A DNA stretch of 46,926 nt from Bacteroidales bacterium (GTDB lineage: Bacteria; Bacteroidota; Bacteroidia; Bacteroidales; UBA932), in NCBI GenBank assembly GCA_017550025.1, contig JAFYLU010000044.1, positions 1 to 46,926 on the forward strand. The letters are read 5' to 3'. This document shows, piece after piece, positions 10,499 to 31,326 of the stretch (position 1 is its first letter; each line of letters starts with the position of its first letter). The translations under genes and the position numbers were made by a program. Below the pieces are notes generated by a model. It worked only from the letters and a program-made list of their open reading frames with translations, was not told where the DNA came from and ran no database searches.

Positions 10499-10517
10499 TC
10501 CACATCCGGAAATTAAG

Positions 10518-24970: not shown

Positions 24971-25465
24971 TCAGATACGCCAAACCGACAAGAGGGCCTG
25001 ACAGTCGCAGGCCCGGAGCACCCCGGAACCGGGTTCATGAATATGCCTTATGATTGATCTGTATGAAACAGAAGATTCTGAAGAACAAAGATCAGGTATC
25101 ACGACCGGACCACATATCTTCACACTCTGCAAATCTTCACGGGTGTCGTCAGCAGCGACCATACCGGTAAGTTCCAGCATCTGATAGTCATTTGTACAGC
25201 AAGGATTGGCCGACAGGGATGGCTGTCCCTGATGATGTTCCGCGACACGCCCGCAGCAAGTGTCTGTGCAATGATCATGAGAACAACATGAAGACTGGCC
25301 GCACATATCTTCGGAATGGATGTCCGCACAGGACGTACCTTCCACGAAGGAAACCACAAAACTGCGGCCGCTGCCAGAACATGTATGCACACCGAAACCT
25401 ATGACACCCACGAGGTACCATATGACCAGCAATGCTGCAAACACCTTTGTAATCAGTCTCTTCAT
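24971..25465 (-). CDS. Cys-rich single-pass membrane protein of a metal operon (HYC_CC_PP-like)
   Basis: 164 residues from the ATG at 25465. One N-terminal hydrophobic helix or signal (FAALLVIWYLVGVIGFGV) is followed by a soluble part with 14 cysteines, including three CC pairs (60-61, 70-71, 89-90) and an early HTC (27-29). The layout (H-x-C after the helix, then CC pairs) recalls a small Bacteroidetes family found beside TonB receptors and HMA proteins. The match is from memory. It probably binds metal in the periplasm. A perfect -7 box sits only nine bases before this ATG. The next ATG upstream (25570) would overlap the divergent gene. Confidence 0.6.
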   Translation of the reverse strand: MKRLITKVFAALLVIWYLVGVIGFGVHTCSGSGRSFVVSFVEGTSCADIHSEDMCGQSSCCSHDHCTDTCCGRVAEHHQGQPSLSANPCCTNDYQMLELTGMVAADDTREDLQSVKICGPVVIPDLCSSESSVSYRSIIRHIHEPGSGVLRACDCQALLSVWRI

Positions 25466-25474
25466 CTCAATCTG

Positions 25475-25482
25475 CAAAGATA
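25475..25482 (-). promoter_or_regulatory. -7 box next to the Cys-rich protein start
   Basis: The minus strand reads TATCTTTG followed by nine bases and the ATG at 25465. If used, the mRNA would have a leader of only about five bases. Confidence 0.4.
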
Positions 25483-25525
25483 TAAATTTATGCCGCAAAT
25501 ATGGGAAGGAATGCAAAATTTTATG

Positions 25526-25533
25526 TAAGTTTG
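25526..25533 (+). promoter_or_regulatory. -7 box of the HEPN-type three-gene set
   Basis: TAAGTTTG matches TAnnTTTG and lies 29 bases before the start at 25563. No -33 TTTG was found at the usual spacing. Confidence 0.4.
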
Positions 25534-25562
25534 TATTGCTTAATCCAACAGAAAGACTCGAA

Positions 25563-26906
25563 ATGCGCAATTTTACCCGATTACTTACTATTCTGCTCGT
25601 ATCTTTTTCTGCAGCATCATGTTATCCATGGGAAAGCGAACTGGAAGAAATCTATGAAGCAGCACAGGACGGCGACCGTCTGTGTCAATTCGCAATAATA
25701 AATGAGCACCATAGCTTCGATGACATAGTACCTGAAGAAACCATGCAGGAGTATCTGCAGGTATTCATAAATGAGGGTAACTCAAGGGCGATAAGCCTGG
25801 CGACAATCATGGAATTAAAAAAATATGATTCCAGCAGAATGGGAGACTATAACAAATATTCCCAAAGGGTACATTTAAAGTGGTACGACGTGGGTATAAG
25901 GCACAACGACCACGAAAGTTACATGGAGCTCGGCGACCATTACATGCACAGGTACAACCAGACGGGTCATCTGCAAGACTCATTGAAGGCAGACGAACTG
26001 TATCAGAAGGCCATAGAGGCAGGCAACATGTACCTTCGAATGCAACGTGACATCAAGAAAGGACTTAAGGCCGTCATTACGGGCGGAATCGATTATGGAA
26101 GATACAGCTACGAAAATATATTCGACGACAAAGGTCCCATATCAAGACTGGTATCTTCATGTGCATACACATTTGCCTATATTTCAAACAGTGCCACAAA
26201 ACTGATTTTCACAAAGGAATGGTGGAAAGTCCTGCTGACCTTATTCGGCATGTTGCTCCTGCTGATAATACCGATAGCAGCAATCAAAGGCCTGTTAAGC
26301 ATAGGACTTCACCCTGGAAAGGAAGGAGAAGGTGTCCCTATCTGGGGCATGATATTCGGATTCTGGAATTCCATGTGTTTCTTTACAGCCGTATCAAAAC
26401 AAAATATCGTATGGATGAACAATACGACATCATTGATTTTCCATCCGTCAGCATATGGTCTGCAGCAATACCTGTCAATCGTAATGAACTGGATTGCCCT
26501 GATATACATCATTGCAGTCATTCTTATATCAATAAGGAACAATCTGGGAAATGAAAGTCTGGGCATGACTGTGAGAAGAATGATCACGTATTGCATAATA
26601 TTCATCATAAGTTACCTGACAGCAAAAATCGGCGGTTATCTGATAATGGTGGTTATATTAGGTATGGCAGGTGTGATTTTCGCGGCAGGAACTGTAGTTT
26701 CCGCTCCTGGAGCGCTACTTTCCGACAGCAGTTCTGATACCGGATCGGACGGCAAAGAATCAGGCAGACGCCCCTATAGAGGCAACTTCTGCTCGTCATG
26801 CTATCATTGGAACAAATCCACACATAGCTGCAGAAAGGACCCGGTACACGAAGTCATTACAAATGAATACGAATTCTGCGACCGTTGGATGCCTGACGAG
26901 TCTTAA
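25563..26906 (+). CDS. Unknown lipoprotein/multi-TM protein with helical repeats and terminal Cys4 module
   Basis: 447 residues from the ATG at 25563; upstream in-frame codons would overlap the divergent gene. The N-terminus has a lipobox-like FSAASC (C20). A helical region (21-215) includes one Sel1/TPR-like stretch (SYMELGDHYMHRYNQTG... LKADELYQKAIEAGN, about 119-154). Four or five hydrophobic helices follow (about 221-245, 260-280, 303-324, 338-380). The tail carries C410, C413, C423 and C439 in a CxxCxxW...CRxxP...FCDRW pattern, probably binding zinc or iron-sulfur. I do not recognise the family. Two membrane proteins with HEPN-type motifs follow on the same strand. Confidence 0.7.
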   Translation: MRNFTRLLTILLVSFSAASCYPWESELEEIYEAAQDGDRLCQFAIINEHHSFDDIVPEETMQEYLQVFINEGNSRAISLATIMELKKYDSSRMGDYNKYSQRVHLKWYDVGIRHNDHESYMELGDHYMHRYNQTGHLQDSLKADELYQKAIEAGNMYLRMQRDIKKGLKAVITGGIDYGRYSYENIFDDKGPISRLVSSCAYTFAYISNSATKLIFTKEWWKVLLTLFGMLLLLIIPIAAIKGLLSIGLHPGKEGEGVPIWGMIFGFWNSMCFFTAVSKQNIVWMNNTTSLIFHPSAYGLQQYLSIVMNWIALIYIIAVILISIRNNLGNESLGMTVRRMITYCIIFIISYLTAKIGGYLIMVVILGMAGVIFAAGTVVSAPGALLSDSSSDTGSDGKESGRRPYRGNFCSSCYHWNKSTHSCRKDPVHEVITNEYEFCDRWMPDES

Positions 26907-26969
26907 CCGTTTTTCAAGACTAAGGATCACAATTCATTGAAATTCAAACTGATTAAAATCTGACTTCAG

Positions 26970-28121
26970 ATGAAAAAAATAAACAGCTACGGTCTCTGCG
27001 CAGCCTTGGACATAGAACCGAAGATATTCGAAGAATACATTGAGGGTCTGATAGAAAGGCTGCAGACCCAGCCACAGTTCAGGAATCTTCCTGCAGCGAA
27101 AAACTGCCTGGAATTGATGAAAGTCCTCGACAACGGATATGGACTCAGGCAGAACGACACATATCTTGCAGCATCACGATTGCTGTTCAATATGGAACCG
27201 CTTCTGATCAGACTGATGGGACTCCCGAATTATTTTCCAGAAGATCCTGTCACCATAGACCCTGTCCGCCTTAAAAACATTCTAGACTGGGCGGCAGGAC
27301 ACAATTATTATGAAAGACCTGCTCAGGACACCATAGGCAAGAACAACACAGAGATTGCCATAGATTCCGACTATTTCAGTCATCTCATCGAGATGTATTA
27401 CGATGACAAGATCATTGAAATGATCGGGACTCTGACCCAGAGCTTGAGAACGGGAGCATTCCCCCCAATGGCATCAAGTAAAGAGATATCAAGGATAACA
27501 AAAGTCCTGCAGACAGACCATATAGTACACATCGACAGGCCGGCGAAATATCAGAAGGAGGGATCGGCATTCAAGAAGCTGATCCTATCTATCTGTCATA
27601 AATATGCCGGTTACGAAGAGGCCAATGAACGGGATGAGCACGGAATGTTTGTCATAGACACTGACAAAGCCGCACTTCAAAGCCATCTCAAGCATCTTGC
27701 ACGTCTGGTATGCGAAGCCAGAAACAGAATTGCCCATGAAGGCCAGATAATTATGGACAACTTTAAGATCAAGGATGCGCTGAAACCTGCATTCATCTTC
27801 CTTTCCCTCGCATCCGGACAGCAGAAGAAGCCGCTGGACCGCATACGGAACAGGATATCATACTGTGCATTGAATCCGATTCACGCTTTAGGCCTGGCTA
27901 TTCCGTTTATAAGAATAGCTGTCATAGTCATAGCCGCATTATGCGTCCTCTGGTGTGCCACCCCTGTACCGCAGGTCCAGAGAATGACATATGACCATAT
28001 CCAGTCAGGAGGAGCGATGGAGAGACTTTTTGAGGCATTTGCAAAGCAGGACACCACCGCCGCACTCAAGATACATAAGGACGCAAACATAATCCGTGAA
28101 ACAACAGAAGCGATCAGATAG
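26970..28121 (+). CDS. Unknown membrane-anchored protein with HEPN-type RNxxxH motif (gene 2 of the set)
   Basis: 383 residues, mostly helical. R251-N-R-I-A-H256 in CEARNRIAHEG is a canonical HEPN R-x4-H motif with Asn after Arg, the form found in HEPN ribonucleases. One membrane helix follows (about 308-330, IPFIRIAVIVIAALCVLWCA) and then about 50 residues. The large N-terminal part would be cytosolic, the tail periplasmic. It lies 63 bases after the upstream gene and 2 bases before a paralogous gene. No nucleotidyltransferase (MNT) or other antitoxin is visible. The fold assignment rests on the motif and its helical context. Confidence 0.65.
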   Translation: MKKINSYGLCAALDIEPKIFEEYIEGLIERLQTQPQFRNLPAAKNCLELMKVLDNGYGLRQNDTYLAASRLLFNMEPLLIRLMGLPNYFPEDPVTIDPVRLKNILDWAAGHNYYERPAQDTIGKNNTEIAIDSDYFSHLIEMYYDDKIIEMIGTLTQSLRTGAFPPMASSKEISRITKVLQTDHIVHIDRPAKYQKEGSAFKKLILSICHKYAGYEEANERDEHGMFVIDTDKAALQSHLKHLARLVCEARNRIAHEGQIIMDNFKIKDALKPAFIFLSLASGQQKKPLDRIRNRISYCALNPIHALGLAIPFIRIAVIVIAALCVLWCATPVPQVQRMTYDHIQSGGAMERLFEAFAKQDTTAALKIHKDANIIRETTEAIR

Positions 28122-28123
28122 TC

Positions 28124-29455
28124 ATGAATCTCAAGATATATAACACTCTATACTCATTCACGCAGCAGACGGGACTTCCGGAATTATCCAAGACCACTGT
28201 GTACAAATGCTTTGACGAAATAATGCTGGAGAAGTCAAATGCACCCTATATGCACCTGTTCCTGAAAGCCATCAATGATCGCACCGCATCATATTCCGCA
28301 TTGGAAATGATCCTCGCCGGCCTTCAGGAAATTCTCCCGGGAAAGAACACTGAAAAGAAGCTGAGCCAGCAGATCAGCAGTCTTCGAAGCAGGTTCGACA
28401 ACGACATCATGTCCCGCATCTTGGCATATATTGAAGAATGCAGGAACAAGCTTACCCATTTCGGAATCATACCAAAGTACGATAATATTCAGAACCTTTA
28501 CGGTACTGATGAGAACGAAAACTACTTCCGACTGGCCTGTCTGATCATCTATACATCATTCAGATGCCGGGCACTTGACCATAAGCCGCAAAGAATGTCA
28601 TGGCTCAGGAACCTCATTTACAGATGGCGTGCGACAAGTACCGTCAGCTATGGCAGCATGGAGCGTATTTCGTGGCTTGACGGATTCTTCGGCCTCATAC
28701 CCAAAACCATTTTCGTGACTTTGGCGATTGCGGTAATAACCGGTATATTAGCTCTGGCATTTGTAATCTTTGCAGCTATATGCGGATTGATAAGAGAATT
28801 AAAGGTCGGCGGGGACGATATGGTTAATTTCAACGACATGAATGCCGCACAGGTCAAGGAGTTCGTCATGGACCTGTCGAAGGCAGAAAGATCCTACTTT
28901 ATAAGCGAACGCCTCCATTCCGTCGAAAGAAATGGAAATTATTATAAGGTAGGAGACACGATAAGGCTCAACATTGACACCGCTACATATGAGCTTTATA
29001 AGATGGCCCGCAAAAACTGGCTGCCGAATGCACACAATGCCTGGGGAACACTCACAATGACAACCATAGGACTGTCACACGTACCCGTACTGAAGATTGT
29101 GTCGCAGATTCCAAGCCTTCACCTTTATATGAAAGACGGTCCGTTGAGAAAAGACAGGGAAACCAGACAGACTGAAAACTATGACACAATAGAACTCTAT
29201 TACTCTTGCGACTTGCATATAAGCAAAAACAGTTCAAGTAACGAAATCAGGCAAATCCGGGATTTTGCAAGACATCTGTCGAAAAAGCACAAGGCCGAAT
29301 ATCTGATCATAGGAAAACCGGCAGACGGAAAGGCTGCTGTAGAAAAAGCAAGAAGCGCCTTAAACTCCGCAGGTGTAAGAAACAGTCAGATAAAGATCAT
29401 ATACGACGAACAGATGGCATATTATCCCGCAGAAGTGAAAGTTCGTATCATATAA
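28124..29455 (+). CDS. Unknown membrane protein: HEPN-type motif, TM helix, possible OmpA-like C-terminal domain (gene 3)
   Basis: 443 residues. R107-N-K-L-T-H112 in IEECRNKLTHFG parallels the motif of the upstream protein, suggesting paralogous helical domains. A long hydrophobic segment (about 191-222) places the N-terminal domain in the cytosol and the last ~220 residues in the periplasm. The last ~85 residues (from YDTIELYYSCDLHISKN to AEVKVRII) follow the secondary-structure pattern of OmpA/MotB domains, including AEYLIIGKPAD, VEKARSALNSAGV and a closing EVKVRI strand. The usual NxxLSxxRA motif is not conserved, so peptidoglycan binding is uncertain. The start is 2 bases after the upstream stop. 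Confidence 0.62.
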   Translation: MNLKIYNTLYSFTQQTGLPELSKTTVYKCFDEIMLEKSNAPYMHLFLKAINDRTASYSALEMILAGLQEILPGKNTEKKLSQQISSLRSRFDNDIMSRILAYIEECRNKLTHFGIIPKYDNIQNLYGTDENENYFRLACLIIYTSFRCRALDHKPQRMSWLRNLIYRWRATSTVSYGSMERISWLDGFFGLIPKTIFVTLAIAVITGILALAFVIFAAICGLIRELKVGGDDMVNFNDMNAAQVKEFVMDLSKAERSYFISERLHSVERNGNYYKVGDTIRLNIDTATYELYKMARKNWLPNAHNAWGTLTMTTIGLSHVPVLKIVSQIPSLHLYMKDGPLRKDRETRQTENYDTIELYYSCDLHISKNSSSNEIRQIRDFARHLSKKHKAEYLIIGKPADGKAAVEKARSALNSAGVRNSQIKIIYDEQMAYYPAEVKVRII

Positions 29456-29495
29456 GGATCCGAAGCGCATAAGAATACTATTTCGGAAATTTCAC

Positions 29496-29503
29496 TATAT
29501 TTG
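29496..29503 (+). promoter_or_regulatory. -7 box of sppA
   Basis: TATATTTG lies 47 bases before the sppA start, after the end of the HEPN-type set, so sppA probably has its own transcript. No -33 box was found at standard spacing. Confidence 0.45.
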
Positions 29504-29550
29504 AACTACATGCAGAATATTCACTGTATAAACTCAAAATAATACATATT

Positions 29551-31326
29551 ATGAAAGATTTTGTAAAAATGACACTCGCCACCATTGCAGGTCTTTTCCT
29601 TTTCGGATTTGTCGCAATGTTCATGATGATAGCAATGGTAGGTACTTTTGCTGCGATGGGAGAATCACAGCCGGTAATGCCTCGCGAAGGGGTACTTCAG
29701 ATTAACATGTCCGGAATGATGCTGGCCGAGCAGACCCAGGAGACTGATCCTATATCCACTCTTTCCGGTGAGCAGAGCATAGCTTCTGTGGGCATCTACA
29801 GTGCCATCAAGGCAGTCAATGCTGCAGCAGAAGACCCTGCAGTAAAATTCATCTACATGAAGCCTGACGGGGCATCCGGAGGAATTGCCCAGCTTGAAGA
29901 GTTCAGGTCTGCACTGGAGAATTTCCGCAACAGCGGCAAAGCCATCGTGTCATACATAGAGAGTCCGAGCAACGCCAGCTACTATCTTGCATCAGTTTCC
30001 GACAAGATCTATATGACCTCATACGATGGAGGAATGAATATGTTCAACGGACTTTCGTCAAGGATGATCTTCCTCAAGGACATTCTCGACAGACTCGGCG
30101 TGAATGTACAGCTGATCAGGCACGGCAAATACAAATCTGCAGGAGAGATGTACATACGAAACTCGTCAAGCCCTGAAAACATGGAGCAGAACACAGAGAT
30201 GATTGAATCCATATGGAACAGCTGGGCGGAAAAGATCGCTGCATCAAGAGAGATATCGGTAGAGGATCTCAACGGAATGCTTGACAACCTCGAGCTCAAC
30301 TTCCCTGAAGATTTCCTTGCAAAGGGCCTCGTTGACGAACTTCTTACCAGAGAGGAGCTCCAGCAGAAACTCTGCGACCTGTATGTGGCAGAACGCTTCG
30401 AGGACATAAAGGCGATCCAGTTCCCAGACTACGCCAAACTCAAGGCTACGGTAAACCTCAAGGCCAAGAATAAGGTTGCAGTGATTTATGCAGAAGGAAA
30501 CATTGTAGACGGAAACCAGAAGAAGCAGGTAGCCGGAGACAGATTTGCAAAAATCATTGCAGATGTAAGGAAAGACACTACAGTCAAGGCTGTCGTTCTC
30601 CGCGTCAACTCACCGGGAGGAAGCGTACTCGCTTCAGAGAAGATCAAGGCAGAACTTGACCTGATCAAGGCAAACGGTATCCCTGTAATAGCGTCATACG
30701 GAGATTATGCAGCTTCCGGAGGATACTGGATTTCAGCAAACTGTGACAAGATCTATTCAAACGCAACAACACTTACAGGATCGATCGGAGTATTCAGCAT
30801 GATACCTGACATAAGCGGTACTCTCAAGAACAAACTCCATGTGAACATCACTCCGGTGAACTCGAACAAGCACGCGGACATGTACAATATGACAAGACCT
30901 CTTGACCAAAAGGAACTCGACTATATGCAGGCTTCGGTCGAGAGAATCTACGACGAGTTCACATCATTGGTTTCAGAAGGCAGAGGAATGACTATAGCAG
31001 AAGTTGATGCTATCGCACAGGGCCGCGTATGGGCGGGCGCCGAGGCACTTAACATCAATCTCGTTGACGAAATCGGAACCATCGAGGATGCCATCATATC
31101 TGCAGCACTGTCCATCGAAGGTGTAACACGTCTGGATGATGTGCAGATCGCAGAATATCCGAAGCCGCTCACCACATTGGAAGTCCTCCTTGAGTCATTT
31201 GGCGGAGAAGAAAGCATCTTCGCAGGGACAGCACTCGAAAGCGTTGAAGAAGCGTTCAGGAATTTCAGCACAGAGGAAAGCGGAAAGGTGTTTGCACGCC
31301 TTCCTTACGAATTCAGCATCAGATAA
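29551..31326 (+). CDS. sppA: Signal peptide peptidase SppA (67-kDa type)
   Basis: 591 residues, matching the long two-domain SppA. An N-terminal membrane anchor (about 8-36) is followed by two tandem S49 folds. The general-base Lys is K195 in GKYKSAGEMY, and the nucleophilic Ser is S389 in YGDYAASGGYWIS. It digests signal peptides left in the inner membrane. Its stop overlaps the stop of convergent tilS by 8 bases (31319-31326), and no terminator is visible between them. Confidence 0.95.
   Translation: MKDFVKMTLATIAGLFLFGFVAMFMMIAMVGTFAAMGESQPVMPREGVLQINMSGMMLAEQTQETDPISTLSGEQSIASVGIYSAIKAVNAAAEDPAVKFIYMKPDGASGGIAQLEEFRSALENFRNSGKAIVSYIESPSNASYYLASVSDKIYMTSYDGGMNMFNGLSSRMIFLKDILDRLGVNVQLIRHGKYKSAGEMYIRNSSSPENMEQNTEMIESIWNSWAEKIAASREISVEDLNGMLDNLELNFPEDFLAKGLVDELLTREELQQKLCDLYVAERFEDIKAIQFPDYAKLKATVNLKAKNKVAVIYAEGNIVDGNQKKQVAGDRFAKIIADVRKDTTVKAVVLRVNSPGGSVLASEKIKAELDLIKANGIPVIASYGDYAASGGYWISANCDKIYSNATTLTGSIGVFSMIPDISGTLKNKLHVNITPVNSNKHADMYNMTRPLDQKELDYMQASVERIYDEFTSLVSEGRGMTIAEVDAIAQGRVWAGAEALNINLVDEIGTIEDAIISAALSIEGVTRLDDVQIAEYPKPLTTLEVLLESFGGEESIFAGTALESVEEAFRNFSTEESGKVFARLPYEFSIR

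Follow-up and report, generated by a model that had tools for sequence, protein, structure and literature searches.

We examined a stretch of 46,926 nucleotides from a Bacteroidales bacterium (UBA932; contig JAFYLU010000044.1), referred to below as the window, which contains a cassette of three co-oriented genes that we call genes 1, 2 and 3 (Table 1). Gene 1 is separated from gene 2 by 63 bases and gene 2 from gene 3 by 2 bases. The cassette had been picked out by an earlier reading made from the letters of the window (the sequence-only reading), and the coordinates, the two spacings and the positions of the RNxxxH motifs that it gave for genes 2 and 3 were all exact. Analysis of codon use revealed that frame 0 was the best of the six frames in each of the three genes, with scores near the low end among the genes of the window. 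The guanine-plus-cytosine contents of genes 1, 2 and 3 (0.437, 0.466 and 0.445, respectively) are the lowest among the 33 genes listed, the remaining 30 all having values of at least 0.472.

Table 1. Position of the cassette, its genes and the features discussed in the text (window coordinates; aa, amino acids).
Feature	Position	Strand	Description or basis
Gene 1	25563..26906	+	447 aa; Cys20 lipoprotein, Sel1-like helical domain, about 4–5 membrane helices (estimated), C-terminal four-cysteine tail
Gene 1 cysteine tail, C410, C413, C423 and C439	26790..26879	+	Absent from 7/7 full-length relatives
Gene 2	26970..28121	+	383 aa; helical region containing R251-N-R-I-A-H256, single membrane helix, short C-terminal tail
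RNRIAH (R251–H256), HEPN-type motif of gene 2	27720..27737	+	Sequence
Predicted membrane helix of gene 2, residues 309–327	27894..27950	+	Hydropathy
Gene 3	28124..29455	+	443 aa; HEPN-like region at the N terminus (R107-N-K-L-T-H112), single membrane helix, then a C-terminal part some 220 residues long
RNKLTH (R107–H112), HEPN-type motif of gene 3	28442..28459	+	Sequence
Predicted membrane helix of gene 3, residues 202–220	28727..28783	+	Hydropathy
Inserted cassette (approximate), about 3.97 kb	25555..29527	.	Flank alignments to L146 (G032) and L142 (G024); separates sppA from its ancestral promoter
TAAGTTTG, promoter -7-like element in place of ancestral sppA promoter	25526..25533	+	Aligned with TAnnTTTG before sppA in L146 (G032)
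TATATTTG, promoter -7-like element now preceding sppA	29496..29503	+	Sequence

The published signature of HEPN domains is Rx4-6H with a polar residue after the arginine (PMC3710099, section 6). RNRIAH in gene 2 and RNKLTH in gene 3 both conform to this signature, so that two neighbouring genes carry the motif. Among the called genes of the window, RNxxxH is found in 2 of the 38 that encode at least 100 amino acids and in 2 of the 33 that encode at least 150, and in both counts the two are the neighbours gene 2 and gene 3. Our cleaned background consisted of 209 genes of at least 150 amino acids from 27 loci of related genomes, which form 182 adjacent pairs. RNxxxH occurs in six of these genes, three of them being the tilS-like gene of three genomes, and in both members of none of the 182 pairs. 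Composition shuffles of genes 2 and 3 contained RNxxxH in 3.0% and 3.7% of cases, respectively, and a stricter pattern that was picked after the data had been seen, RN[RK][ILV][AST]H, in 0.01% and 0.025%. Comparison of gene 2 with gene 3 by BLASTP returned as its best piece the motif alone (EARNRIAHEGQI with ECRNKLTHFGII; E = 0.90), and this alignment gives the common context ExxRN[RK][IL][AT]HxG. Because the motif is present in 6/209 background genes and in roughly 1 in 30 shuffles, and the pair in 0/182 background neighbours, the pair of motifs is unusual and a motif alone is not proof. The occurrence of RNxxxH in two adjacent genes is thus notable, not decisive.

The sequence-only reading had described each motif as being followed by a membrane helix. 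One strong hydrophobic helix is present in each protein, but it lies 53 residues (gene 2) and 90 residues (gene 3) beyond the motif and not directly after it. The 20-residue flanks of the gene 2 helix hold three positive residues before it and one after, a charge balance that would suit a cytosolic placement of the motif. For gene 3, the near flanks of the helix contain one positive residue before and two after, which leaves the side of the motif undecided.

We then compared both proteins with families of HEPN proteins. Residues 223–274 of gene 2, which include the motif, gave a weak match (E = 0.02) to PHROG 2158, described as 'abortive infection resistance protein'. The members of this group, which we take to be Abi_2/AbiD-type HEPN proteins, include three from genomes of the same order that carry RNICAHH or RNMCCHH. 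Hidden Markov model profiles were built from seven Abi_2-type (PHROG 2158) proteins and from five AbiU2 proteins, each member being chosen as the open reading frame (ORF) with an RxxxxH-type motif. Residues 35–113 of gene 3 aligned with the seven-protein Abi_2 profile in register, with E61 placed on a consensus glutamate and the alignment ending on the motif. Scores as high as that of gene 3 came from 4 of 3,000 shuffles, 9 of 3,000 shuffles that kept the motif and none of 206 background proteins. Weighing these comparisons by judgement, we consider it somewhat probable that gene 2 and gene 3 are both HEPN-fold proteins.

Other searches with these two proteins returned little. When their domains were scanned singly in Pfam, no model scored above its cut-off, and in a sequence search of the PDB the best match had E = 0.38. 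We did not read homology into two matches of gene 3, to Pfam Phage_connect_2 (E = 0.005–0.008, under the cut-off) and to the PADLOC '2TM' effector (E = 0.013, residues 193–271). The C-terminal part of gene 3 (28811–29455) resembles a degenerate OmpA-like domain by eye alone; no Pfam model matches it, and we do not claim this assignment.

Gene 1 has four hydropathy peaks in its membrane part. The Sel1-like repeats attributed to it by the sequence-only reading correspond to a single Pfam Sel1 match, which is present but weak (E = 0.17, under the Pfam cut-off). A three-sequence profile of gene 1 and two of its relatives, searched against 399 other genomes of the genus, identified seven full-length relatives in six genomes and one partial match (G539). 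A further 14 genomes of the genus gave short matches alone, as did 15 of 197 other genomes of the order, nearly all of the latter to the Sel1-like stretch. More generally, the profile has short matches in many other proteins, mostly at about model positions 90–151. The seven full-length relatives are 18–21% identical to gene 1, keep its membrane part and all have the lipoprotein Cys20. RNxxxH ORFs occur elsewhere in the relatives' stretches, in non-adjacent positions (one in L051, one in L052 and two in L109). We also observed that the genus holds a family of Sel1-like lipoproteins with several membrane helices and differing tails (25563–26906 in the window; L051, L052 and L104–L108), and that the four-cysteine tail is found in the window copy alone among the eight aligned family members.

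The trio is an insert. It lies between a TonB-type receptor (identified by Pfam) and a small cysteine-rich gene on the - strand, on one side, and on the other a + strand gene that we take, from its sequence, to be sppA. The small gene has no Pfam family and is metal-resistance-like by look only. From 57 other genomes with an sppA match we chose 16 sppA loci, 6 with TonB-receptor/sppA flanks and 10 that have other neighbours or end. In the six related genomes with these flanks (L142–L147; window 24971–29551) the receptor and sppA adjoin, sppA is 61–83% identical and the small gene is recognisable in four. Searches with tblastn revealed that the cassette genes are absent from all six of these loci and from all 16 sppA loci. 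The flank alignment to L146 (G032) ends at 25554 and resumes at 29528, which correspond to positions 10506 and 10509 of the relative, with two bases between them. The alignment to L142 (G024) has its edges at 25501 and 29511, with 123 bases between them in the relative. The left edge of the insert is approximate because the alignment there is about 65% identical. Across the edges we found no repeats of 8 bases or more.

We assume TAnnTTTG as the promoter -7 consensus. Because TAAGTTTG, before the cassette, aligns with the sppA element of G032, and TATATTTG now precedes sppA, the cassette seems to separate sppA from its old promoter. The pattern TTG-N20-TAnnTTTG, presumably the Bacteroidota promoter type, occurs 23 times in the window (1–46926) with at most one mismatch, compared with 10.2 expected, a count that fits Bacteroidota-type promoter use. 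In several other genomes of the genus, among those listed, the neighbour of sppA is a hisS-like gene (by look), and in L155 (6146–11111) three genes beside sppA have starts that resemble a type I restriction-modification set by eye. Ten neighbour genes in the window, scanned with Pfam, belong to housekeeping or transport-type families or to none. The cassette was probably acquired horizontally.

Genes 2 and 3 are rare. At E = 0.001, gene 2 matched none of 60 relatives and none of 392 other genomes of the order; 36 of the latter had weaker matches (best E = 0.003), of which two loci were inspected. Its tblastn matches in L002 and L003 fall within or beside pseudouridine-synthase-like genes, which marks them as chance. 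Gene 3 had no match at the same threshold in 150 other genomes of the genus, with weak matches in 18 (best E = 0.011), two of which were inspected. When the two proteins were joined into one query, weak matches appeared in five other genomes (E = 0.002–0.045), and the three inspected (L022, L055 and L058) proved unrelated. The matches of gene 3 or of the joined query in L022, L025, L055 and L058 lie among unrelated genes, housekeeping-type by look, and were set aside as chance. Pattern scans of public genomes (genes 2 and 3) and of viral contigs (genes 1–3), which are sensitive to close relatives only, found none. Searches with tblastn against plasmids (genes 1, 2 and 3) and phages (genes 2 and 3) gave no match with an E value below 2, and the gene 2 match in the record of a Listeria phage falls in a glycosidase-like ORF. 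The sequence-only reading had named co-occurrence of the three genes in other genomes as a test. Among the genomes searched they co-occur only in this one, and a conserved three-gene system is not supported.

That reading stated that the cassette matches no known system, a claim that is not supported, as one paper already describes membrane HEPN proteins and an AbiU2 operon with a Sel1 gene (Anantharaman et al. 2013; PMC3710099). Section 15 of this source distinguishes three groups of bacterial membrane-associated HEPN proteins and suggests that they place RNA degradation under the control of external stimuli. Genes 2 and 3 resemble these proteins in combining a HEPN-type motif with a membrane helix, and a link between a surface stimulus and RNA breakdown is proposed for both. 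Those described there are single proteins (DUF4145 with a WP helix; Abi2/SWT1 behind a helix; HEPN, two helices and a Zn ribbon), whereas in the cassette two HEPN-like proteins are accompanied by a Sel1-like lipoprotein encoded separately, and no Pfam model matches gene 3 in its C-terminal part. Gene 3 also departs from the third group, in which two transmembrane helices and a Zn ribbon follow the HEPN domain: it has one hydropathy peak, and no Pfam model covers its C-terminal part. The same source reports HEPN domains from both Abi and membrane systems and states that such toxins evolve fast.

Similar partial likenesses are found with other families. Genes 2 and 3 share the RN-x3-H motif with the Abi_2/AbiD–AbiF type, and residues 35–113 of gene 3 align with it in register, the score being weak yet higher than in the controls. 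However, the seven proteins used are 298–343 amino acids long, and the likeness of genes 2 and 3 to them lies under any accepted threshold. HEPN–MNT (HepT–MntA) toxin–antitoxin systems likewise have a HEPN-type toxin candidate in a short operon, but no MNT nucleotidyltransferase domain was found in genes 1–3 or in the ten Pfam-scanned neighbours. The solitary gene 1 family of the genus shares the lipoprotein cysteine and the membrane part with gene 1, and its members have neither an adjacent RNxxxH gene nor the four-cysteine tail. In the portions available of the literature on HEPN proteins with membrane anchoring, Sel1 or composite active sites, we found no three-gene system of such form. The working idea is therefore known, because the 2013 paper covers it (PMC3710099), and the arrangement seems new, since no such three-gene system was found described in those portions. 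Of the interpretation given by the sequence-only reading, the HEPN signature in two neighbours stands, together with the Abi_2-type alignment of gene 3, but the claim that nothing known resembles the cassette is not supported, and the co-occurrence test came out against a conserved system.

The reading that we favour, tentatively and at somewhat less than an even chance, is that the locus is a rare acquired cassette in which the membrane HEPN pair is a ribonuclease (RNase) gated by gene 1 in an envelope response. Genes 2 and 3 would be anchored in the inner membrane with their HEPN-type domains in the cytosol. HEPN RNases are commonly dimeric, with one R/H set per subunit, and two unlike subunits may therefore form one site. 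Genes 2 and 3 would then act jointly as an RNase, probably as a dimer of unlike subunits to which each contributes one RNxxxH. Through its lipoprotein domain, gene 1 would sense events at the envelope, for example damage or an attacking phage, and relay the signal via its membrane helices, perhaps with the cysteine tail, thereby holding or triggering genes 2 and 3. Once they were triggered, cytosolic RNA would be cut and growth would stop. The rarity of the cassette, its status as an insert and the lack of relatives are consistent with a conflict or stress module that evolves fast. The analysis establishes the genes with their motifs, hydrophobic helices and shared orientation, the insertion, and the rarity among the genomes searched; the HEPN fold, the topology, dimerisation, gating by gene 1, RNA as target and a role in defence or stress are inferred. 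The cassette is probably a rare acquired variant of the known membrane-associated HEPN effector theme and a stress or phage-defence module. A more elaborate proposal, which we regard as decidedly unlikely, is a three-part envelope alarm in which gene 1, as a Sel1-type lipoprotein facing the periplasm, uses its cassette-specific four-cysteine tail to gate a membrane RNase composed of two unlike HEPN subunits, and in which the cassette takes over the sppA promoter; this would give a bacterial counterpart, made from separate proteins, of Ire1-like RNA cutting at a membrane.

Several results weigh against a gated membrane RNase. No Pfam, NCBIfam or PADLOC model scored above its cut-off for gene 2 or gene 3, and the same three resources recognised no antitoxin or known defence domain in proteins 1–3. 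The Abi_2-profile score of gene 2 was reached by 117 of 3,000 shuffles, 141 of 3,000 motif-keeping shuffles and 3 of 206 background proteins, so that this profile does not clearly distinguish gene 2. Profile–profile comparison with hhalign, using very small profiles (three PHROG 2158 sequences and one AbiU2 sequence), gave no link for either protein. The Ex3[KR] element expected upstream is not clearly present: the only upstream match is EANER in gene 2, and the other matches overlap the motif itself (EARNR and ECRNK) or come later in the proteins. At the level of the genus, the joined query of genes 2 and 3 found no relative at E = 0.001 in any of the 399 other genomes, and none of the seven full-length relatives of gene 1 has an adjoining RNxxxH gene (the upstream side of L051 ends at a contig end).

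A serious rival to the favoured reading, in our view somewhat unlikely, is that the RNxxxH motifs are coincidental or lie on non-catalytic helical domains, and that the trio encodes a set of membrane proteins of unknown use, such as an envelope scaffold, and no RNase. The frequency of the motif in background genes (6/209) and in shuffles (3–4%) speaks for such a module, as do the family models that do not pass and the missing profile–profile link. However, coincidence sits less well with a motif that occurs in both neighbours and in no other called gene of the window, in the similar context ExxRN[RK][IL][AT]HxG, and with Abi_2-like sequence in gene 3 that extends beyond the motif.

Alternatively, the cassette might be an Abi-like system built like the pairing of AbiU2 with a Sel1 protein but moved to the membrane, with gene 1 as partner or antitoxin and genes 2 and 3 as HEPN toxins released by phage infection. 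Table 1 of the 2013 paper gives AbiU2 as 'In operon with a gene encoding protein with Sel1 repeats' (PMC3710099), and the cassette resembles this in having HEPN-type genes beside a Sel1-type gene, albeit one whose Sel1 match is weak (E = 0.17). Both the Sel1-like region of gene 1 and the insert status fit such a system, and the whole-sequence score of gene 3 with the AbiU2 profile was reached by only 1 of 3,000 shuffles, 3 of 3,000 motif-keeping shuffles and none of the 206 background proteins. That score, however, adds up two weak pieces, of which one (residues 368–429) lies beyond the membrane helix, and the best single piece was reached by 15 and 30 of 3,000 shuffles. Gene 2 is at background with this profile, its score being reached by 52 of 206 proteins, and HEPN_AbiU2 (PF18734) was not among the Pfam matches of genes 2 and 3 up to E = 5 or, in a second scan, E = 10. 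Unlike AbiU2, the cassette also has membrane helices and two HEPN-like genes, and the ten Pfam-scanned neighbours are housekeeping, transport-type or without family. We regard an AbiU2-type system as fairly unlikely. It is highly unlikely that the locus is a fragment of some larger mobile element, or of a prophage remnant, with the three genes as mutually unrelated cargo. The lower GC content of the insert and the absence of relatives of genes 2 and 3 from the related genomes searched could be explained in that way, but the insert holds only three co-oriented, closely spaced genes with no integrase-type match among them, there is no edge repeat of 8 bases or more, and the searches made gave no credible viral, phage or plasmid match.

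Comparison of the insert with the empty sites delimits which part of the locus is the module. If its two proteins are not RNases, the locus is a very rare membrane cassette and would matter little in general. If both are HEPN RNases, it would offer a way to test what was proposed in 2013, the control of RNA cutting by surface signals acting through membrane HEPN proteins, in a case where a sensor and two nuclease subunits are encoded by separate genes.

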